Below are positions 18,433 through 35,546 of a stretch of 64,000 nucleotides of DNA, one piece after another; position 1 is the first letter of the stretch; every line of letters starts with the position of its first letter. A program made the translations under genes and the position numbers. This stretch comes from an uncultured Dehalococcoidia bacterium (lineage in GTDB: Bacteria; Chloroflexota; Dehalococcoidia; Lucifugimonadales; UBA3495), in assembly GCA_951813535.1 (NCBI GenBank), contig OX638345.1:3464608-3528607 (forward strand), read 5' to 3'. The notes beneath the pieces are model-generated. The model worked only from the letters and a program-made list of their open reading frames with translations, was not told the origin of the DNA and did not search any database.

Positions 18433-18787
18433 GGGCTGGATTGTTGACAACCCGAAAGAGTGCGGCAAGGGGGTTTGTCACAGGCGTTCACATATTTGAG
18501 TAGGCAACAACGGGATCCGCCTCTACGTTGTCGCGTGCGCGGGATGGATTGTTGTCGTTTCAACCGGTCGCGGTCGCTTACGTCACGCAGGTTTGGCCAC
18601 GATTTCAAAACGTGACGAATACCCGGATTCAAGGGCGGACAGGTGATATAGTGCCCGCGGCGGCCGGGATGCGGCGGGTAATTGGCCCGCAGCTGCGTTG
18701 AGGTTTGGAGAGAGGCCGTCCCGTCTTCACGGCCGTGCTGCGCCGCCGCTTCCGAACCGTTACGCTGACTCGTTGAGGACTGCCCGC

Positions 18788-19684
18788 ATGACCCAATCGC
18801 GCCAGGGCGTGCTGATCGCCATCGACTGGGAGAACATCCGGCGTGGCGCCCAACTCTACCAGCGCAAAGTAGGGCCGGCAGAGGTGTACCGCGCCATGCA
18901 CGACGTGGGCTCTGTATTCGGAGGAGTGGCGGGTGGCAAGGCCTTCGGTGACTGGTCACTCCGGCCCGATGACGGGCGAGAGTTCGCCGAGCACGACGTT
19001 GTTCCGTATCACGCGCCCCGCACCATCGCCGGGAAGGACCGCGCCGATCCGGCCATCCTGCTGGAGGTCTACGAGTGGGTCCGTGATCGTGACGACTGCG
19101 GAACGGTGATCCTGGGTTCAGGAGACGCCGACTACCAGGTGCTGGTGGACCGGGCTCGTGGTTACGGGAAGCGCATCGTGTTGTGCGCCTTCAGCGCGTC
19201 GGTGTCGCGGGATATGCTGGCCACCGCCCCGCTGTTTCCGCTGGAGGCCGAGTTGGGCATTCAGACGGCGGAGCATGGGGACGTCAAGCTGGATCTCGCC
19301 GCTGCACCGGTGAGCGACGATGTGGACGGCGAGGACGTGGAAAGCGGCCAGGTCCTGGGGCGGTTCGTCCGGCAGATGTACAACTTGGAAAGCCGCATGA
19401 ACTTCGTCGGCTACAGCATGCTTTCAAATCAGTGGATGCTGGACTGGGGTCTGGCCTGGAACGAGTACGAGTGTCGCCGCCTGCTTGACGAGTACCAGGA
19501 GGCGGGGATCGTGGAGCGTCACGAGGTATTCAACCATGCCAACCCGGACTGGCCCACGTCGGCGCTGCGGCTGGTCCGGACCGACGAGCGAGTGCGCCAG
19601 GCATTGGGGTTCAGCGAGGGGCCCGCGTCCAACCCGGTGCTGTCCAATGACGCAGCTCCTGTGCAGCATGGCTCCGCTGGCTAG
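18788..19684 (+). CDS. NYN (PIN-like) domain RNase-type protein
   Basis: A 298-residue protein from the ATG at 18788, with TTGAGGA about 8 bases upstream. The N-terminal ~160 residues are a NYN/DUF88 (LabA-like) domain: an acidic first strand (VLIAIDWENIRRGAQLY), then KDRADPAILLEVYEWVRDRD, then GTVILGSGDADYQVLVDRAR and GKRIVLCAFSASVSRDMLAT. The clustered Asp residues are those expected to bind metal. The C-terminal half (residues 190-280) looks like a winged-helix/LOTUS-type module (WNEYECRRLLDEYQEAGIVE). The family cleaves RNA or is predicted to. It stands alone, divergent from the broken membrane block. Confidence 0.85.
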   Translation: MTQSRQGVLIAIDWENIRRGAQLYQRKVGPAEVYRAMHDVGSVFGGVAGGKAFGDWSLRPDDGREFAEHDVVPYHAPRTIAGKDRADPAILLEVYEWVRDRDDCGTVILGSGDADYQVLVDRARGYGKRIVLCAFSASVSRDMLATAPLFPLEAELGIQTAEHGDVKLDLAAAPVSDDVDGEDVESGQVLGRFVRQMYNLESRMNFVGYSMLSNQWMLDWGLAWNEYECRRLLDEYQEAGIVERHEVFNHANPDWPTSALRLVRTDERVRQALGFSEGPASNPVLSNDAAPVQHGSAG

Positions 19685-20648: not shown

Positions 20649-21193
20649 TCACGCCGCGATTCCCAGCTCTCGTAGCCTGGCCACCAAATACTCCTGCGGC
20701 CGGTCGCCCTTCACCCGGTTGCAATGAGCGCACAGCAGTTGCAGGTTCTCGATGTTGTCCTGGCCGCCGGCACCCTGCGGGATGACGTGGTCGACTTCCA
20801 GGATGCGGAATGGAAACTCGCTGCGGCACCCGTTGCACCGGCCTTCCTGCTGTCCGAACAGGACGTGTTTGTTCTGGCGGTACGGCACCGGCACGTCGAT
20901 GTCGGTGCGGGCGGTAACGAACCCTTGTGGGTGAGTCCGGCCGTCTGCAGGACCTGGTACATGGCAGGCTGCTCGTCGGCGATCAGCCCCATCCAGGCCA
21001 CGTCCAGGTCGGACAGCGTCCAGGTGTCCTTGAACGCCGCGCCGGCTGCGGCGCTGCCCACTGGCGCGGCGTAGTTGCGGTTGGAGTTGAACGGCGGGTC
21101 CAGGTAGATGAGGTCAACCGACGCGGAGTTCAGGCCGCGCAGGATGTCCAAGTTGTCCCCGGTCCAGATGGTTCGGTCAGCGAAGTTGGTCAT
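20649..21193 (-). pseudogene. Remnant of DNA methyltransferase joined to an HNH domain
   Basis: The 5' part (from ATG at 21193) reads TIWTGDNLDILRGLNSASVD, then LIYLDPPFNSNRNYAAP: the DPPF catalytic motif of amino-methyltransferases of the DNA N6-adenine/N4-cytosine type. It ends near residue 90 without the SAM-binding FxGxG motif. After a frame change the 3' part is an HNH domain (CNGCRSEFPFRILEVDHVIP, GGQDNIENLQLLCAHCNRVK), ending TGA at 20649 with CxxC, DH and CxxC ligands intact. An internal deletion appears to have joined the two ends of a longer methyltransferase-HNH gene. Methylation activity is very unlikely; HNH activity cannot be excluded. Confidence 0.75.
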
Positions 21194-21532: not shown

Positions 21533-24500
21533 CTACGTAGGGATGAGTTGCAAGATGCCTCTTGGCAAGTTGAACTCACTGGACGCGTTTTGATCGCCGA
21601 ATTTGCTCGTCCTTTTTCCGAAGATATCCAGCAGAAGACTTGCGTATTGCCGTTGAGATCGGAAATCGTCGGTGGCGATTTGCCTGCCCAAAGCGGACAA
21701 ATATTTGTCACGGTAACGTCCAGCGGCTTCGTTTAGTACAAACGTGTTGATGATCTGTCCATAAATCCCACGGCTGGACTCTGCGAGACGTTGGGTAACC
21801 CCGCTCCACTCTTCGGCGGTGTCGGTTGTCCAAGTTTCTTGGGATAAGTTAATGATGAGCGCAGCCGATCTGAGTTCGGCGGTCTCAAAATAATCTGGTT
21901 TCTGCACCTCTATGCCTCGGGTCGCAAACACCCCTTGCTCAGCTGCCTTCGCCAGTATCGGTAGCAAAGCAACATCGAGGTCGCGTCTGATGTAAGTCTT
22001 GCGCAGCAATTCCGCTACGTCGCTAGACCTCTTGCCATGCACTCCGTAAAATACGAACTCAAAGTTTTTGTTCGTCAAGTGTTCATGAATATCCAATATG
22101 TCGTGCCCGAGCGTATCCAATATCATGATCAAGGCATCGATAGGGATCAATGAATTGGCCGCGACCGAACCGTAAATCGACTTTAGAATGTCAAGATCAA
22201 TGGTCGGCAGATCGTTCTTTTGATCTAGGCCATCGGACACATAAGAGGCCATCAACCCCCAGTTGATCAATGTCGCAACAAACTCTTGGGTCGCCCGACT
22301 GGGAGCAGCGCAGAATACGTCCACCAGTTCTCCTATTCGCTCGCCCGTTTCCGACGGTATGATCATCACCGGCGTCGCCCGCAGGGTGGTGGGAAAGCCA
22401 CAATCTTTGATTCCTCGATCAAACGGCAGGCGGTCATCGGTCATCGACAGTACATCGTCTTTGGTAACTCCGTTCGCGCTCCATCGGTTCTCCGCGGCTT
22501 CCCAATCGCCCACATCGCCGAGATCGCCAAGTCGAGCTCGCGCGGCCATGTCCAATAACTGTGCGTCACTGTTGCAAGCGTTCAAACACGCTAGGATCGG
22601 CCATGGCAGTGTCAGATGCCCGCTCTCTGATAGGACTTCGCAATCCTCAATGAGGGATGGTGCCATCGAGCATAGTGCCGACGCCAATGCTTCTTTGGAC
22701 GGTTTATCCATGAATTCTCCGGCATATTTGTACACCGCCCAACTGGAATGCCAGCCATCAATATCTTTGAAGCGTTTGATGTAATCGGACTCAGGGCTGT
22801 TCAGTCGGACCACGTTAGCGTACCGAACAGTCGAGCCCAACAGTCTGATCTGGTGCCTATGGTAACTTGGCATCAAAACGTTTGCCGCTGCTTCGATTAA
22901 CGGTCCTCCGCTTACAGCACCCCGCTGTCGGAAAACATCCGTGGGACCCAACTCCGCTGCAAGGTTCTTCAGTGACACTGCGGGCAGCAAACTTACGATT
23001 TTCTGTATGGCCCACGGATTGTTCATCAGTTCGTGAGCCGCACCCATGAGCTGAAGTTGATCTGCATGTGCTTCGGGCCAGTTGTCGTCAGCTGCCTGAA
23101 CGGCCCAAGGTATGCGGTCTAACAAAAGGCGCAACAGGCAGTTCCAAGCGCCTACGAAACCGATCCCGCCCCCGGGTTTGATGCGATTTCCGATTTCGGA
23201 TTGGTACAGTTGATCCAATTGGGGTTCGTACACGCTCGCGAAACGGGCATGGAGGCTCGGATGCGCTACGTCCAAACACCTTACAGCAACTCTAGCGATC
23301 ATACGAGCGTATTTGGGTTGACGGAGTGTCAATCCTTCATCGAGTAAGGTGACTGCCAGATCAGAACCTGCAAGTGAAGCGGTTGAAATTGGATCCGAGT
23401 CCAGTTCGTTCAAACCAGCACAAATCGAATAGATTGTGTCACGCAGGTTTCGCCGTTGACTGAAGCATTGGCCGGCTGCGAACAAAAATACGTTCCGCCA
23501 AAACTGGATGGGAGCGATCTCCTTCAGTCGTTTTTGGATGTTTGGTTCACTCCCATCCATTAGACTCTGGGCCGCCATGAATTCTTGCAAGGACCGGATT
23601 TCGAATCCGACCTGGGCTTCTTCCAACTCGACCAAAAGAACTAACCGTTCCGCGACCGCTTCGACTATTTGCTGAGCAAGTTCGCGTAAAGGCTCACCTT
23701 CGTGTCCTTCCTCTCCCAGCTGCGCTTCTACTAGCGAGCTAAACTTATCGCGAGATAACTTAGCGTTGGTACCGCCCGTTTGTTCAGAAGCAATCTGCAG
23801 CAGGAGACCTACTTGATGGTGTAATGTATCGATTTCGGATGAGTAATCGCGTAATATCGCGGATGCTGGGATATCTTTTTCTTCCTCGCGTTGATAGATC
23901 ACCTCGTAGTACGACTTGAAGAGGTTCCATCGTGCCTGAGGTGGTTGGCCTCTTCGGTCCACCAACGCGGTCATGATAGTGACTTGCAACGGAGTGCGCA
24001 TCAAGCGTGAGGTCGACTCATGCTCGAATGCGCGCTCTAACCTTACGAGAACCGTTTCTTTGCGGTCCACGTTGGTGCTGTACCTTGCGTCTACCAATTG
24101 CCGCGCGAAATGCATGCCCAATTCAGGAGACAATTCCGCAAGCCTGCAATGCTTGTAATTTCGAGGTGAAAAGTCATCGTTGTAGCCTTGGGGACGGGTG
24201 GTGGCTATACACAGTATGTCAGCGCCCAATCTTGCCGCGTCGACCCAGAAATCTTTAATCGAGGCCAGCACTTGGCTCCGATTACTAGACGCCGGAACTT
24301 CGTCCAAGCCATCGAAGATGATAACACCAGGGTAATGTGTCAAGAATCGTTGAAGATCGTCTGCCCGTACGTTCTTGTCCGTACGCTTATTGATCCGCCA
24401 TGCCAAATAAGCAAAAACCGAATTCACCCCAGTTTCGGAGTTGTCGGACAATGCAGACGCAAAATCGCTGAGGCTGACCCGAAATGGGAACCTGGGGACC

Positions 24501-25573
24501 ACTTGGTGGTAGAGGTCAATCCCTTCATTGTTGCACCGTTCTTGGATAGTGGACAAAGCCGTACGGGTTTCGCTGGACAAGGTCTCCGAGGGCACTGGGG
24601 AAATAATGGCCGCTCGAAAAATCTGACAGATAAACTGTCCGAGAGTGGTTTTGCCTTGTCCAGGTCCTCCAATCAATACGAAACGGCCATTCATGTCGTG
24701 GGATGCTGCAGATTCCAAAGGCTGCACCGCCTCAGTGACACCTGAAGCACCGATATCGAACCGTTCTGATGCAGCGGAGAGGATCTGTTTGATGAAACCA
24801 TCCTCAAACGAGACTTCATCGTTTAGTGGCAATTCGTCAAAGGATTCGTATGGGAACGTACCACCCATTGCGGGTTCGTTCACCGTTGGCAAGTCTACGA
24901 AAACCCTGGCGAGAGGTATATTCTCCTCTGTTGAATGGCCCGCTTGATCGAGGTTTACGAATTCGTCAGTCAACAACTCTTTTTGCAGGAACCCCACCAA
25001 AGTATCTTCTAAGTCGGCGAGCGACGGATGGACCTGACTGATTATCGCTGACAAAACGTCCCCAGGAGTAACTAGAGGGGCATACGCAATTCGAACGTCA
25101 GCGTCAGCGTCAAGGAACCTGCAGATTTTGTCATAGTCCCAAATGTCATAGCCTTTCAAAGACGTTTGGGATTTGAAGTCTTCAAGTAGTCGCTCCGCAC
25201 GATCTTTGGATCCCCATTCGTGAACCGGAGTTAGCACGGCATTGGTAACGTACACAAAGTAATCTGGCTGGCGTAGACCTCTTTCGTTATTAGCGAACTT
25301 CCTCAGTTCTTTGCGCAATTCGTCTACGGCCCAATTTCCATCTTTCGGTGTATTGCTAGGCCTCTGCAGGAACTTAACCTGGACCACCCCATACCCATCC
25401 CAAGGATCTGCGGCCGAAGGGTATGTGAGCTCGCCATCGAAAGTCGCTTCGCGCCCACCATCCGGGCCGTCTCCAAAGATCGTGATCCCAGGTCCCAAAA
25501 CGTTGACTGCCAGAGACTGAATCAAATGCTCAAATGAACGGCTCGACAATCGGCTCAACGCGTAATCTGTCAC
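21533..25573 (-). CDS. NACHT NTPase with Mrr-like nuclease N-terminus (Avs/NLR-like)
   Basis: A 1346-residue protein from a GTG with GAGG about 8 bases upstream. Residues ~10-160 resemble an Mrr-type PD-(D/E)XK nuclease: SFEHLIQSLA, GDGPDGGREATFDGE and VVQVKF (QVK near 65-67). Residues ~295-480 are a NACHT STAND NTPase: Walker A GGPGQGKTT (~302), Walker B VIIFDGLDE (~417) and TTRPQGY (~458). Residues ~510-700 form a helical winged part. The C-terminal ~650 residues are helical without a clear repeat and are a natural place for a sensor. In this family, binding of a phage component by the C-terminus drives oligomerisation and activates the N-terminal nuclease. It stands alone, is lower in G+C than its neighbours, and is flanked by an integrase fragment and a methyltransferase/HNH remnant. 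Confidence 0.85.
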   Translation of the reverse strand: MTDYALSRLSSRSFEHLIQSLAVNVLGPGITIFGDGPDGGREATFDGELTYPSAADPWDGYGVVQVKFLQRPSNTPKDGNWAVDELRKELRKFANNERGLRQPDYFVYVTNAVLTPVHEWGSKDRAERLLEDFKSQTSLKGYDIWDYDKICRFLDADADVRIAYAPLVTPGDVLSAIISQVHPSLADLEDTLVGFLQKELLTDEFVNLDQAGHSTEENIPLARVFVDLPTVNEPAMGGTFPYESFDELPLNDEVSFEDGFIKQILSAASERFDIGASGVTEAVQPLESAASHDMNGRFVLIGGPGQGKTTLGQFICQIFRAAIISPVPSETLSSETRTALSTIQERCNNEGIDLYHQVVPRFPFRVSLSDFASALSDNSETGVNSVFAYLAWRINKRTDKNVRADDLQRFLTHYPGVIIFDGLDEVPASSNRSQVLASIKDFWVDAARLGADILCIATTRPQGYNDDFSPRNYKHCRLAELSPELGMHFARQLVDARYSTNVDRKETVLVRLERAFEHESTSRLMRTPLQVTIMTALVDRRGQPPQARWNLFKSYYEVIYQREEEKDIPASAILRDYSSEIDTLHHQVGLLLQIASEQTGGTNAKLSRDKFSSLVEAQLGEEGHEGEPLRELAQQIVEAVAERLVLLVELEEAQVGFEIRSLQEFMAAQSLMDGSEPNIQKRLKEIAPIQFWRNVFLFAAGQCFSQRRNLRDTIYSICAGLNELDSDPISTASLAGSDLAVTLLDEGLTLRQPKYARMIARVAVRCLDVAHPSLHARFASVYEPQLDQLYQSEIGNRIKPGGGIGFVGAWNCLLRLLLDRIPWAVQAADDNWPEAHADQLQLMGAAHELMNNPWAIQKIVSLLPAVSLKNLAAELGPTDVFRQRGAVSGGPLIEAAANVLMPSYHRHQIRLLGSTVRYANVVRLNSPESDYIKRFKDIDGWHSSWAVYKYAGEFMDKPSKEALASALCSMAPSLIEDCEVLSESGHLTLPWPILACLNACNSDAQLLDMAARARLGDLGDVGDWEAAENRWSANGVTKDDVLSMTDDRLPFDRGIKDCGFPTTLRATPVMIIPSETGERIGELVDVFCAAPSRATQEFVATLINWGLMASYVSDGLDQKNDLPTIDLDILKSIYGSVAANSLIPIDALIMILDTLGHDILDIHEHLTNKNFEFVFYGVHGKRSSDVAELLRKTYIRRDLDVALLPILAKAAEQGVFATRGIEVQKPDYFETAELRSAALIINLSQETWTTDTAEEWSGVTQRLAESSRGIYGQIINTFVLNEAAGRYRDKYLSALGRQIATDDFRSQRQYASLLLDIFGKRTSKFGDQNASSEFNLPRGILQLIPT

Positions 25574-25976
25574 GATAGAACCTCGGAACTAAGACTGAAA
25601 GAACGCGGGCGGGTAGTACACGGACAGCGTACCCGCTGTATCTCGTCACGCCCGAGATGGCAACGGGATATGGTCTATGACCCCGTAACCTAGGTAAAAC
25701 ATATCATATTCGCATTCATCGCAGCGAGTCCCAGCGATCGAACTTCCAAACTAACTGAGAACGGGGACCGTTGTTGGTTATACTGCCCATTGCATCGAAG
25801 CGATGGGCGAATTGGTCTGGCAAAACCACTCGAAATTTTCGGCTTTAGGAACGCGATGGAGGGAAGTTGCCTCGTCGTCAAGTCATTGCCATCCCCATGT
25901 TTGATGGTCGCTCTGTTCTCTGGCCAGACCAGAATGGCAGACTGTGAACGGAAGTCTGCCATGTTAAACTCGTGGC
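25574..25976. other. Divergent intergenic region upstream of NACHT gene
   Basis: About 400 bases between the NACHT gene and the integrase fragment, transcribed in opposite directions. It must hold the NACHT promoter. The translations of the open frames are not protein-like, and no clear -35/-10 pair can be asserted. Confidence 0.4.
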
Positions 25977-26546
25977 ATGGCGACGCGAGGTCTACCTCAC
26001 TACTGGACTCCTGATTAGGTGAAGATGATCTTGGACGCCATGCCGGCGGGACAGCCGTGGCTCTTCGGGCTGCTGCGCTGGCGGACCGCGCTACGCCAGG
26101 CAGAAGCGCTCAACCTGGAGTGGCGCGATCTGCAGTTCGCGGGCGCTCAGCCGTCGGTCACGGTTCGCAACGGGAAGGGCGGTAAGTATCGGGTGGTTCC
26201 GGCGCATCCGGAGTTGGTGGACGCCTTCCGTTCGGTGCCGCACCGTGGCCTCACGGATCAGGTGTTCGCCGGACGCCGCGGCAAGCCGCTGTCAGCCAGG
26301 ACTGCGGCACGGTGGATCTGTGACGGGATCACTAATGGAGGTCTCCGGTCTGCCGCCACTGGAACCGCCGCCAAAGGCCCTGCCTCCCACAGCCTTCACC
26401 ATAGTTGCGCCCGACACGGGTTGCAGTCCGGCCTCAACGTCAACACCGTTTCGGCATGGCTGGGCCACTGCAGCCCAACGGTGACGCTGAATACATACCT
26501 GGTGCTGGCGCCGGACACGTTGGGCGACATCAGAGAGTTTCCGTGA
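25977..26546 (+). pseudogene. Tyrosine recombinase catalytic domain, interrupted by TAG
   Basis: From the ATG at 25977 the frame reads MATRGLPHYWTPD, TAG (26016-26018), then VKMILDAMPAGQPWLFGLL and TALRQAEALNLEWRDLQF. The usual sequence of this family at that point is TPEQV, so CAG to TAG is likely. Later come the Lys strand (VRNGKGGKYRVVPAH), the His box with HxxH in place of HxxR (SHSLHHSCARHG), LGHCSPTVTLNTY with the Tyr nucleophile, and a TGA stop. A GTG directly after the TAG could restart translation but lacks a ribosome binding site. The changed Arg and the nonsense codon indicate an inactive XerC/D- or integron-type recombinase left by a mobile element. Confidence 0.75.
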
Positions 26547-27489: not shown

Positions 27490-28359
27490 ATGGCACCACA
27501 AATGCGCAACTTTCTAATAATCCCTTCGGTGATCATCCTAGTGACGCTGCTGGCGTGCTCCATCCTATCGCCGGAGTTGGCGGCACCCACGCTCGGTCCG
27601 CCAACCGAAGAACCGACGGAACAGCCGATAATGGCTCCCACTGCCGTGCTGGCACCGACTCCGACAGAGCCGACGGTGCAGGCCGGCCCAACCTGGCGCG
27701 GAATCACCGTAGCGGCTGAGCACAGGTGCTCTCCCTACGATTCGGACGACTATCCCTATCCGGCGTCGGTTGAACCCAAGATCGTCTCTGCCCGGGGCGG
27801 TATCTACGGCCCATATACCGGAACGTGGTTTACCAGCATCAAGGAGACGGACATCGAGCATATCGTCGCCCGGTCTGAGGCCCATGACAGCGGGCTTTGC
27901 GCGACCAACCCCGCGACTAAAGCCAAGTTCGCATCCGATCTCCTGAACCTCACGCTGGCGTCTCCCAGCGTGAACCGTCACCAGAAGGTGGCCAAAGACG
28001 CTGCTGAGTGGCTCCCAAACCTCAATCAATGCTGGTATGTGGCTCGCACGATTCAGGTCCGTCAGGCGTACGACCTCACAATTGACCAAGCCGAGGCGCA
28101 TGCGATCGATAGAGTGCTGGCCAAATGCGGCTCAACGGAAATGGTGGTATTGGCTCCTGCACAGCGCATCGAACATCCCACACCGACAAGCCCTGCCGCC
28201 GCCCCTGGCGCGGACCCACTGGGTTTATATGACGATAACGGGAATGGCCGCATCACCTGCGCCGAGGCTCGCGCTCACGGTATCGCGCCGGTACGACGAG
28301 GCCACCCGGCTTACCAGTACATGCGCGATGCCGACGGAGACGGAGTAGTTTGCGAGTAG
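27490..28359 (+). CDS. Secreted HNH (DUF1524-like) nuclease with Excalibur domain
   Basis: A 289-residue protein with AGGAG just before the ATG; the ATG at 27502 is also possible. The N-terminus is a lipoprotein signal (FLIIPSVIILVTLLAC), followed by a Pro/Thr-rich linker (residues 30-65). Residues ~95-210 match the DUF1524/GmrSD-type HNH pattern: DIEHIVARSEAHDSGLC, then FASDLLNLTLASPSVNRHQK and WYVARTIQVRQAYDLTIDQA. The C-terminal 40 residues are an Excalibur calcium-binding domain (NGNGRITCAEARAHGIAP ... DADGDGVVCE). It is probably an extracellular, surface-bound, Ca-dependent nuclease for DNA scavenging or competition. The TAG after VVCE is the natural end. Confidence 0.85.
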   Translation: MAPQMRNFLIIPSVIILVTLLACSILSPELAAPTLGPPTEEPTEQPIMAPTAVLAPTPTEPTVQAGPTWRGITVAAEHRCSPYDSDDYPYPASVEPKIVSARGGIYGPYTGTWFTSIKETDIEHIVARSEAHDSGLCATNPATKAKFASDLLNLTLASPSVNRHQKVAKDAAEWLPNLNQCWYVARTIQVRQAYDLTIDQAEAHAIDRVLAKCGSTEMVVLAPAQRIEHPTPTSPAAAPGADPLGLYDDNGNGRITCAEARAHGIAPVRRGHPAYQYMRDADGDGVVCE

Positions 28360-32375: not shown

Positions 32376-33095
32376 GATGACCTCCTTGGTTTAGTTCACC
32401 ATGATGATAGTAACTCCAGATCGGTTTTCGGCGCTGGAGCATGGTGGCTGCCTCGCCTTGAGGCCACACTAGTACTCAGTCAACGTTGGAAAGGCATGGG
32501 TAGAAACGTTGAAGTTTGATCCTGGCGTCATGGGTGCCGAAGCGCCAGTTGATGGGGATGCGGGGCGGCGTGGCGCCGGTTCTCGTAAGCCGTAATGGCG
32601 CGATGCAGGGAGTCGGCGTCGGGGTTTCTCCCTTTGAGACAGGCGCGGCTCAACGCGCTGAACTGAATCTCCGCCATCTTGAGCCGACTGGCTTGCTTGG
32701 GAGTGTGGTGAAACTCGAGACGCTTCACGATGCGCCTGGCTTCGGCGGCGGGGAAGGTCTCGTACAGGGAAGCCATGCGGTGGGTGTTCAGATTGTCCAG
32801 GACCGCGCGGATGACGGTGGCGTGGGGGATAGGCCACGTCCACCAGATGCGGCGTTGGGTGATGGCATGATTGGTCAAGAGCCGCACGCGCCAGCCCGCC
32901 AGCGGCTCGCAGAACAGGAACAGGTTGCGGGTGCCACCGCGTCGGTACTCGTAGTCTTGACGTCGGGGACGTCCCTGCTGGACGGGCAACGGCTCTCTGA
33001 CATCAGCCAGCAGTTGGGTGGAGGTCTCGTCGAAGCACACCACCGGCCGGCTGGGGTCGTAGGGCTCGGCATACAGATCCAGCACGTCCTCCATC

Positions 33096-33124
33096 GCCTG
33101 CCCCGTACTGGATGCGGGGCGGCC
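33096..33124. repeat. Palindromic element inside transposase (imperfect copy)
   Basis: Arms GCCTGCCCCGTA and TGCGGGGCGGCC pair with three mismatches around the loop CTGGA. It interrupts the conserved junction between GEFVAA and MEDVLDLY of the transposase. Loop and arms match the element at 33320-33350 in inverse orientation. Confidence 0.7.
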
Positions 33125-33319
33125 ACGAACTCCCCGTTCATCTGGGAGATGCACCACTGCTGTTTTAGCCAGGGTTTGAGGGTGTTTTTTCAGACGGAGC
33201 CTGACCGTCTCGTATGACAGGCTCTCCACCAGGCCCAACTCAACCACCTTGTCGGCCAATAGGCGCAGGGTCCAGTGGTCTTGGTCCTCTGGATCGTCGC
33301 TGCACGCCAGGGCGATCAG

Positions 33320-33350
33320 AGCCCACCCCGTATCCAGTACGGGGTGGGCT
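33320..33350. repeat. Palindromic element inside transposase (perfect copy)
   Basis: A perfect 13-base stem (AGCCCACCCCGTA and TACGGGGTGGGCT) with loop TCCAG, 31 bases in all. In the transposase frame it encodes an extra HPVLDTGW between GEA and ALIALAC, positions that are adjacent in ordinary IS630 relatives. Confidence 0.85.
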
Positions 33351-33820
33351 TCGCCACGATCATCCAGCTTGCGATACCGGTTGGCCTGGGGATGGTCATA
33401 TAGCACACCGTCCAATTCCTCCTCGGCGTACCGCCGCTTGGTGCGAAACACCGTGCGCGGCGACGTGTCCAGGGCCGCCGTCACCTGAGAAGCGCTCCAG
33501 CCTGCATCGGTCTTGAGCAGGATGCGCGCCCGATTGATGATCCGAGCCGAGCGTTGGCCGCTACGGATCGACCGCTCCAGTTGGCTCCGATCTTCCTCTG
33601 ACAACCGTACCGCGAACTTCTCCTGAGCCATGGCTGCCGCACCTCCCGCACCGCTGCTTGCCACTCACGATAGGGACCATGGCCGATTCTTTCTTATCTT
33701 TGACGGTACTGGTTTGACTGCATACTAGTCGCCGTCGGTAATGGTGAGCACGTCTTGGAGCACCTCGTCAGGGAGTACCGGCGTGTGGTGGTGGTCGCCG
33801 TTCTCGGTACGGGACTGCGT

Positions 33821-34403: not shown

Positions 34404-35546
34404 TTAAGCCTGGCTTGGCGCTGGTGCCAGCACCAATCCTGTTGACAACTCATCTGCGGACCGCTTGAGTGACCATGCAGTCTGGTCGATATCGGGTTTG
34501 TTCTTGAAGTAAAACAGGTCATCGCCGGTGAGTCCGGTGATGTCCAATGCGAGATTGAGCATGTGCGGTTGGAGGTGGCGGTTCAGGTACATCCCGAGGC
34601 CTGCGCCCGTGATGGTGCCAGCTATCCCACCCACAAGGTTGCCGATTACTGGCACGGCGGTGCCGATGGCTGTTCCGCCCATTCCGCCGGCGGTGGCCAG
34701 TACCGTGGTGATTCCCATTCTCGACATCAGGGTTAACGCCTGTACGACTTGAACCTTGTTCCGGTTGGTTCGGTCGACGGCTTTGAACCGCTGTTCGGTG
34801 CGAATGGCCCCATGTATAAGGCGCGCTGCGGCGAGTATGGCGCCGGCGTAGGGGATGATGTCTCCCACGTTGTCCGGTACGTCGATACCGAGGTTATCGC
34901 TGAGCAGGTCTAGGCCCTCCGTGACGCTTTCGCCCAGTTCGGCGGTTGAGCCGATGTCTACCATTTGCTCAACGAGCTCTGGGTTATTGTCGGCTATTCG
35001 GTCGAACAATTCGCTGCTATTGGCGTAAATGGTATCGGGGTTGTCGAGCATGAGGCTCTCGACATGGCTTGCATTCTCCGCTGCCATTGATTTGACTTGG
35101 ACAGGTAATTGGGTCCCATCAGGGAACGTTGCCCAGAAATCTATCCCGGGATGAGTAGCTGAGTCCGGGAAGGTTACTTGGATGCCTTGCTGCTCTAATC
35201 TTTCGGCGAGATCGAGTTCTGCTACCTTCCCTTTGAGGCCATTGACGAAGCCTTGTTCCGATGCGAGTCCTTGTTCTTTCATCAACGACCAATGTGCATG
35301 CAGCGAGTGGTCGGTTGCCAGCCCTGGGTACTGGGCTTCGTACGAAAGCCTCAAGGTGTCGTCTACGTTCACCTCATCCCAGATGCCCCACATCGCAAAC
35401 GATACTGATGCCGTGAATTCCGCAGCCTGGAAGGCAGGGTCCGTCCCGGCCAGGTCTTCGATTGACTGCCGAGTTGACCGACGACAGTCGTCGGTGGCCG
35501 GTAGTTCCTGTAGTTCCGGCAGCATCTGGAGTGATTGCATGCTCAT
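34404..35546 (-). CDS. PD-(D/E)XK nuclease-like protein with glycine-rich membrane segment
   Basis: A 380-residue protein with GAGG overlapping the upstream stop. Residues ~100-155 hold a restriction-like active site: GKVAELDLAERL (E110), PGIDFWATF (D136) and QLPVQVKSM (Q150-K152). Residues ~229-248 (IIPYAGAILAAARLIHGAI) and ~278-320 (GITTVLATAGGMGGTAIGT, GNLVGGIAGTITGAGLGM) are hydrophobic; the second is a glycine-zipper stretch of the kind found in membrane-inserting or pore-forming proteins. The C-terminus (DITGLTGDDLFYFKNK) is soluble. It is second in an operon with the tail-anchored gene 12 bases upstream. A nuclease held at, or inserted into, the membrane suggests an abortive-infection effector or toxin. 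Not a family I can name. Confidence 0.6.
   Translation of the reverse strand: MSMQSLQMLPELQELPATDDCRRSTRQSIEDLAGTDPAFQAAEFTASVSFAMWGIWDEVNVDDTLRLSYEAQYPGLATDHSLHAHWSLMKEQGLASEQGFVNGLKGKVAELDLAERLEQQGIQVTFPDSATHPGIDFWATFPDGTQLPVQVKSMAAENASHVESLMLDNPDTIYANSSELFDRIADNNPELVEQMVDIGSTAELGESVTEGLDLLSDNLGIDVPDNVGDIIPYAGAILAAARLIHGAIRTEQRFKAVDRTNRNKVQVVQALTLMSRMGITTVLATAGGMGGTAIGTAVPVIGNLVGGIAGTITGAGLGMYLNRHLQPHMLNLALDITGLTGDDLFYFKNKPDIDQTAWSLKRSADELSTGLVLAPAPSQA

Follow-up and report, generated by a model that had tools for sequence, protein, structure and literature searches.

Introduction

In the bacterial proteins bNACHT25 and bNACHT32, a PD-(D/E)XK nuclease is carried on a NACHT module, the nuclease is needed for defense, and DNA is degraded upon infection (PMC12169576). 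Both belong to clade 6 of the bacterial NACHT proteins and combine, within a single gene, an N-terminal PD-(D/E)XK DNase, a central NACHT, and a presumed C-terminal sensor. The Avs1 to Avs5 proteins are also receptors of the STAND type (signal transduction ATPases with numerous domains), with a swappable N-terminal effector and a large C-terminal sensor. Here, we analyzed a stretch of 64,000 nucleotides (contig OX638345.1, positions 3,464,608 to 3,528,607, assembly GCA_951813535.1; hereafter the window) from the complete 4.38-Mb genome of an uncultured Dehalococcoidia bacterium. The subject is the gene at window positions 21533 to 25573, which an earlier note, made from the sequence alone, had read as an antiphage protein composed of an Mrr-like nuclease, a NACHT NTPase, and a large unclassified C terminus. 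Our analysis suggests that the gene probably encodes an antiphage receptor of the NACHT-STAND class, resembling the animal nucleotide-binding leucine-rich repeat (NLR) proteins and armed with a DNase effector.

Results

A putative nuclease joined to a NACHT-type switch

The gene is one uninterrupted minus-strand open reading frame of 1346 codons with a GTG start (Table 1), the strand being a detail absent from the earlier note, and the opposite strand over the same positions contains stops throughout. Its G+C content is 51.6%, and the remainder of the window has 61.6%. In an alignment with 25 relatives, D38, Q65, and K67 of the N-terminal domain were invariant or near-invariant, and a D...(E/Q)xK site is thereby present. 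The predicted model of this domain has the element order α-β-β-β-α-β, with first strands that are short and of low confidence; this order would be that of Mrr-like PD-(D/E)XK enzymes.

The same alignment was used to evaluate the NTPase motifs. Residues G302, G305, G307, K308, T310, D421, G422, D424, E425, and R460 were invariant or nearly so, the five positions of Walker A without any variation, and because of this conservation the motifs are not attributable to chance. The sequence DGLDEV at residues 421 to 426 fits the NACHT pattern DGxDE, in which the first Asp is followed by a small residue and, further on, by an acidic pair. When the window protein was searched by itself against Pfam, AAA was matched marginally (E=8e-4) and NACHT fell below the cut-off (E=0.016). 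NACHT (PF05729) was matched by 21 of the 25 relatives, with a best E value of 5.9e-16, and a family profile searched against the PDB retrieved NLRC4 (E=2e-5). Judged from sequence, the NACHT label is firm at the level of the family only.

Next to these motifs, the predicted fold of the core also points to the NLRs. A model of residues 1 to 741 was obtained from six sequences, with a predicted local distance difference test score (pLDDT) of 60. Foldseek placed NOD2 at the top (E=5.6e-5), with NLRP2 also leading, and the VIA matches were led by NLRP3 (Z 12.7), NLRP9, NOD2, and NLRC4 (Z 12.3, 7.0 Å over 230 residues); the overall root mean square deviation is high because the inter-domain angles are uncertain in the model. 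With moderate confidence, the core is predicted to adopt the NLR-type fold of NACHT, helical domain, and winged helix, an arrangement shared with NOD2, NLRP3, and NLRC4. The mammalian NLRs differ in that they have a CARD or PYD where the window protein has the nuclease, while in the window protein neither leucine-rich repeats nor a winged-helix His was found.

The missing His is a property of the whole family. The winged helix terminates in FEIRSLQEF, and, with position equivalence set by the sequence alignment, Ile, Val, or Leu replaces the His in 23 of 23 family cores. It is kept in two cyanobacterial NACHT proteins (L008 and L009) and in a Vibrio virus protein (L085), which read FSHQTFQEY or THKSIQEY at this place. 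This His is frequent in NLRs but lies outside the definition of NACHT. On the alignment, therefore, the core family is a mildly unusual NACHT clade for its absence.

A fast-evolving C-terminal half

Residues 771 to 1346 gave no match in Pfam, PADLOC, or NCBIfam, and no internal repeats were found on self-comparison. Identity to the closest homologue is 55% in the N-terminal domain, 57% in the NTPase, and 64% in the winged helix, and reaches 31% and 27% in the C-terminal quarters. Among relatives sharing effector and core, a profile built from five close C termini picks up, beyond these five, just part of one further protein (L024). We also observed short family members of about 900 to 960 residues that are without most of the C terminus. 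A structure model of this half was excluded from every fold search.

Most of the anatomy given in the earlier note was recovered by this analysis. The restriction endonuclease-like motifs, Walker A, Walker B, and the TTRPQGY strand are all present where Table 1 places them, and the arrangement of Mrr-like nuclease, NACHT STAND module, and variable C terminus is upheld by motifs, family profiles, fold, and identity by region. The C terminus indeed showed no repeats; its unclassified part, given as about 650 residues, is nearer 575, since the winged-helix region reaches approximately residue 700.

Interchangeable parts within the family

Comparison of the relatives showed that effector and core have been exchanged between proteins. 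In the cyanobacterial proteins L008 and L009, the nuclease domain is 54 to 55% identical to that of the window protein and is carried on an unrelated NACHT; in trees, their nuclease domains fall among those of the family and their cores far outside. A gene of this type sits among DndB-like, DpdJ, DpdD, and DpdK genes in a cyanobacterial Dpd cluster. Conversely, two Ktedonobacterales-like proteins (L012 and L013) carry a Cap4 nuclease (PF14130, E=8e-20; PADLOC LmuA, E=1.8e-17) on a family core that is 48% identical to that of L011, whose N terminus is Mrr-like. In a protein from an Arthrobacter plasmid (L084), the family core (328 bits to the core profile) is joined to an HNH nuclease. The Mrr-like nuclease is found in most members, and all three effectors carried by the core are nucleases, in agreement with the swappable effector that the earlier note had expected. 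This pattern would be that of a constant switch with an exchangeable nuclease and a variable part to which a sensing role may be assigned.

Distribution of the relatives

Relatives range over Chloroflexota, Actinomycetota, cyanobacteria, Bacillota, and Proteobacteria. The closest homologue (L010, 45% identical over its full length) is encoded in another Chloroflexota genome, G372, and long relatives were found in Solirubrobacter, Micromonospora, and Patulibacter. Plasmids of Rhodococcus, Gordonia, Streptomyces, Arthrobacter, Priestia, Variovorax, and Klebsiella carry relatives that share residues 1 to about 770. In the neighborhood of the Klebsiella plasmid relative there is a Lit-family phage exclusion gene; a type ISP restriction gene occurs close to an Arthrobacter relative (L031). 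Any match at all was found in 36 of 400 genomes of the same phylum, mostly to the NTPase alone. At the protein level the gene is absent from all 13 congeners, and none of the DNA matches listed for these genomes covers it. The genome of the window encodes another NACHT-like protein, which is up to 1567 residues long (L081:3492-8192; G000:C1:3569491-3574191).

The motif pattern was unmatched in viral contigs, the window protein had no match in phage genomes, and nothing near the Klebsiella relative was found in E. coli genomes. Searched with the Klebsiella relative, the phage genomes gave two Vibrio tectivirus-like records at 22.8% identity, one of them annotated as bNACHT01-like. This annotated NACHT gene (L085:12520-14310) lies near the end of a Vibrio tectivirus-like element and is possibly a virus-borne defense gene.

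Comparison with named defense families

The window protein was matched by none of the Avs1 to Avs5 models of PADLOC and NCBIfam at E<=1, and its relatives were unmatched as well. The same libraries detected Avs2 and a fragment of Avs4 some 80 to 90 kb away on the same chromosome, and because of these positive controls the negative result is informative. The Avs2 homologue is full length (L080:10052-14782; G000:C1:3400051-3404781; PADLOC PDLC02164, 1399 bits) and is separated by about 81 kb from the gene studied here. The other gene (L080:6964-9651; G000:C1:3396963-3399650) encodes up to 896 residues; they match Avs4 over its C-terminal half only (model positions about 751 to 1577), and both the nuclease and the beginning of the NTPase are missing. 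In a four-sequence file, the family core profile met the Avs2 of this genome at the P-loop only (6.7 bits, E=5e-4), and it aligned with the bNACHT01-annotated Vibrio virus protein along most of its length (54.8 bits). The solved structures of Avs3 and Avs4 were not among the fold matches listed, an absence that carries no weight.

The comparison with bNACHT25 and bNACHT32 was made by description alone, and the difference that emerges is the lack of the winged-helix His in the present family. Clade 6 proteins carry the C-terminal helical domain NCH1, and none was found in our Pfam scans, whose library may lack an NCH1 model. The PADLOC candidate PDC-S73, which is a candidate only, has an apparently similar layout of restriction endonuclease and P-loop; it was matched by 15 of the 25 relatives (best E, 1.4e-9), whereas its match to the window protein is confined to the Walker A stretch (E=0.0086). 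EruA (NCBIfam NF058535), a NACHT antiphage protein by annotation, was set aside as an identity for the gene: a substantial match occurred just in a cyanobacterial relative with another NACHT core, and the window genome was unmatched.

Neighborhood of the gene

The receptor gene lies between two gene remnants, both of which the earlier note had pointed out along with the lower G+C. Downstream is what remains of a methyltransferase-HNH gene, and upstream the C-terminal part of a tyrosine integrase. In congeners, about 1.2 kb separates the two ends of the methyltransferase-HNH gene, the spacing expected of intact genes. In G372, an intact gene of this kind (L082:14562-16004; a type II/III methyltransferase by PADLOC) adjoins the closest homologue on the same strand. 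Such fusions occur in several copies per genome across the genus and may mark integration hot spots. The mobile, defense-like setting that had been proposed is upheld.

TABLE 1 Features of the receptor gene and its flanks, in window coordinates
Feature	Residues	Positions	Strand	Basis or remark
Whole REase (restriction endonuclease)-NACHT STAND gene	1-1346	21533..25573	minus	1346 aa, stop codon included; 45% full-length homologue in same phylum
Likely ribosome-binding site GAGG		25581..25584	minus	7 nt 5' of GTG; sequence reading
Putative Mrr-like PD-(D/E)XK nuclease domain (effector)	1-185	25019..25573	minus	D38/Q65/K67 conservation, predicted element order, weak Mrr_cat in relatives
Catalytic motif FGDGPDGGREA ... 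VVQVKF	33-68	25370..25477	minus	Sequence and alignment
Linker	186-290	24704..25018	minus	Conserved LQKELLxDxxxxLxQAG segment, rest variable (alignment)
NACHT-type P-loop NTPase	291-480	24134..24703	minus	Motifs, family Pfam, fold searches
Walker A GGPGQGKTT	302-310	24644..24670	minus	Alignment
Walker B with NACHT DGLDE signature	416-426	24296..24328	minus	Alignment
Sensor-1 strand TTRPQGY	457-464 (motif 458-464)	24182..24205	minus	R460 invariant
Helical domain, winged helix, and following helices	481-770	23264..24133	minus	Alignment, predicted model, NLRC4 profile match
Winged-helix motif VGFEIRSLQEFMAA	655-668	23570..23611	minus	Ile659 where canonical NACHTs carry His
Mostly helical, fast-evolving presumed sensor	771-1346	21536..23263	minus	Alignment, prediction, self-comparison
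Methyltransferase-HNH remnant		20711..21193	minus	Residues 11-101 joined to 374-471 of intact relative; middle deleted
Tyrosine integrase C-terminal remnant		26019..26546	plus	Pfam Phage_integrase 2e-16; HxxR -> HxxH; N-terminal part missing

Several other genes of the window were also observed. A gene with an NYN domain (18698 to 19684), unusual for this PIN-like RNase fold in its copy number, is present about nine times in the genome, counting full and partial copies, and one to eight times per congener, and as a multi-copy gene it was unusable as an anchor for the empty site in congeners. The product of positions 27490 to 28359 is lipoprotein-like, with GmrSD_C (HNH-type) and Excalibur domains. 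On the minus strand, positions 32528 to 33664 encode an IS630-type transposase (DDE_3 and helix-turn-helix domains); at the DNA level, many sites of this genome and its congeners match the gene. Also on the minus strand, positions 34404 to 35546 encode a protein of 380 residues, unmatched in Pfam, with a nuclease-like E...D...QVK motif followed by a glycine-rich hydrophobic C terminus; it might act as a nuclease that is secreted or attached to the membrane.

Discussion

By analogy with bNACHT25 and bNACHT32, trigger-dependent destruction of DNA that aborts the infection is the most likely mode of action, and we infer ligand sensing, oligomerization, DNA cleavage, and phage resistance along the following lines. 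At rest, the NACHT module would hold nucleotide and the variable C-terminal half would keep the protein closed. The C terminus would then bind either a product of the phage or a host protein that the infection has changed, upon which the NACHT module would swap its nucleotide and oligomerize. Oligomerization would bring together the N-terminal Mrr-like PD-(D/E)XK domains, and these would cut DNA, that of the phage and probably that of the host, so that infection is stopped and the cell is lost. The observations behind this reading are the domain order, the intact nuclease and ATPase residues, the predicted NLR-type core, the exchange of nucleases on one core, the unusual variability of the C terminus, and a distribution that is sporadic and mobile.

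Some observations count against an antiphage receptor of this kind. The Pfam model Mrr_cat (PF04471) was matched weakly, by 6 of 19 relatives with a best E value of 0.0085, and not by the window protein itself. The C terminus is predicted to be almost all helix, but the model, built from four sequences, has a pLDDT of 42.8 and is unusable, and its presumed role as a sensor rests on position and variability. The strongest immediate defense context, the Dpd cluster, belongs to relatives sharing the N-terminal domain only. Finally, in NLRP3 the winged helix takes part in locking the inactive state, and its His touches the phosphates of the nucleotide (PMC7711157). The present family is without this residue, which is thought to help keep NLRs inactive, and its switch may work differently.

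The same architecture could belong to a divergent Avs protein whose trigger, like that of Avs1 to Avs4, would be phage terminase or portal. The tripartite order, the size class, and the nuclease effector are indeed the same, and Avs2 and an Avs4 fragment are encoded in this genome. However, the Avs models that detect these two genes match neither the window protein nor its relatives, and the core profile meets Avs2 at the P-loop alone, whereas it follows the bNACHT01-annotated protein along most of its length. We consider an Avs protein quite improbable here; the earlier note had given placement in an Avs clade as a result that would refute its reading, and none in Avs1 to Avs5 was found. The many plasmid-borne relatives and the adjacent integrase remnant could instead reflect defense directed at mobile DNA such as plasmids, or a module for maintenance or competition of a mobile element. 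Plasmids commonly carry defense genes, though, the loci share no antitoxin-like partner gene, and the known nuclease-NACHT proteins target phage (PMC12169576), so that a role outside phage defense seems improbable.

A link to methylation was also weighed, in which the methyltransferase-HNH protein would mark self DNA and the NACHT protein would cut what is unmarked. A same-strand methyltransferase-HNH gene adjoins the receptor in G372 and a remnant of one lies in the window; since there are few copies per genome, chance adjacency in both loci is unlikely. Nevertheless, the window combines an internally deleted methyltransferase with an intact receptor, the two loci do not have the same gene order, and no other relative examined has such a gene beside it. 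The methyltransferase was set aside as an obligate partner, being broken in the window, and a restriction system split in this way is very unlikely. Both flanking genes being remnants, the receptor gene might likewise be a non-working relic, which 1346 codons without a stop and the conservation of all active-site residues make most unlikely. An NLR-like antiphage receptor with a DNase effector thus remains the probable function of the gene.

The novelty is smaller than the earlier note implied, as bNACHT25 and bNACHT32 are already known as nuclease-NACHT antiphage proteins (PMC12169576). More tentatively, and with the balance of our judgment somewhat against it, the family may represent an undescribed clade of bacterial NLRs with an off-state lock unlike that of animal NLRs, for want of the His, and with a modular platform in which one switch serves three nucleases (Mrr, Cap4, and HNH) and sensors are rapidly replaced. 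Overall, the analysis adds a widespread nuclease-NACHT family that lies outside the named-family models of PADLOC and NCBIfam used here. Its missing winged-helix His offers a simple mutational handle on how the resting state is held. Its natural chimeras, one switch with different nucleases and one nuclease with different switches, make it testable which half of a bacterial NLR determines the trigger and which the mode of killing.

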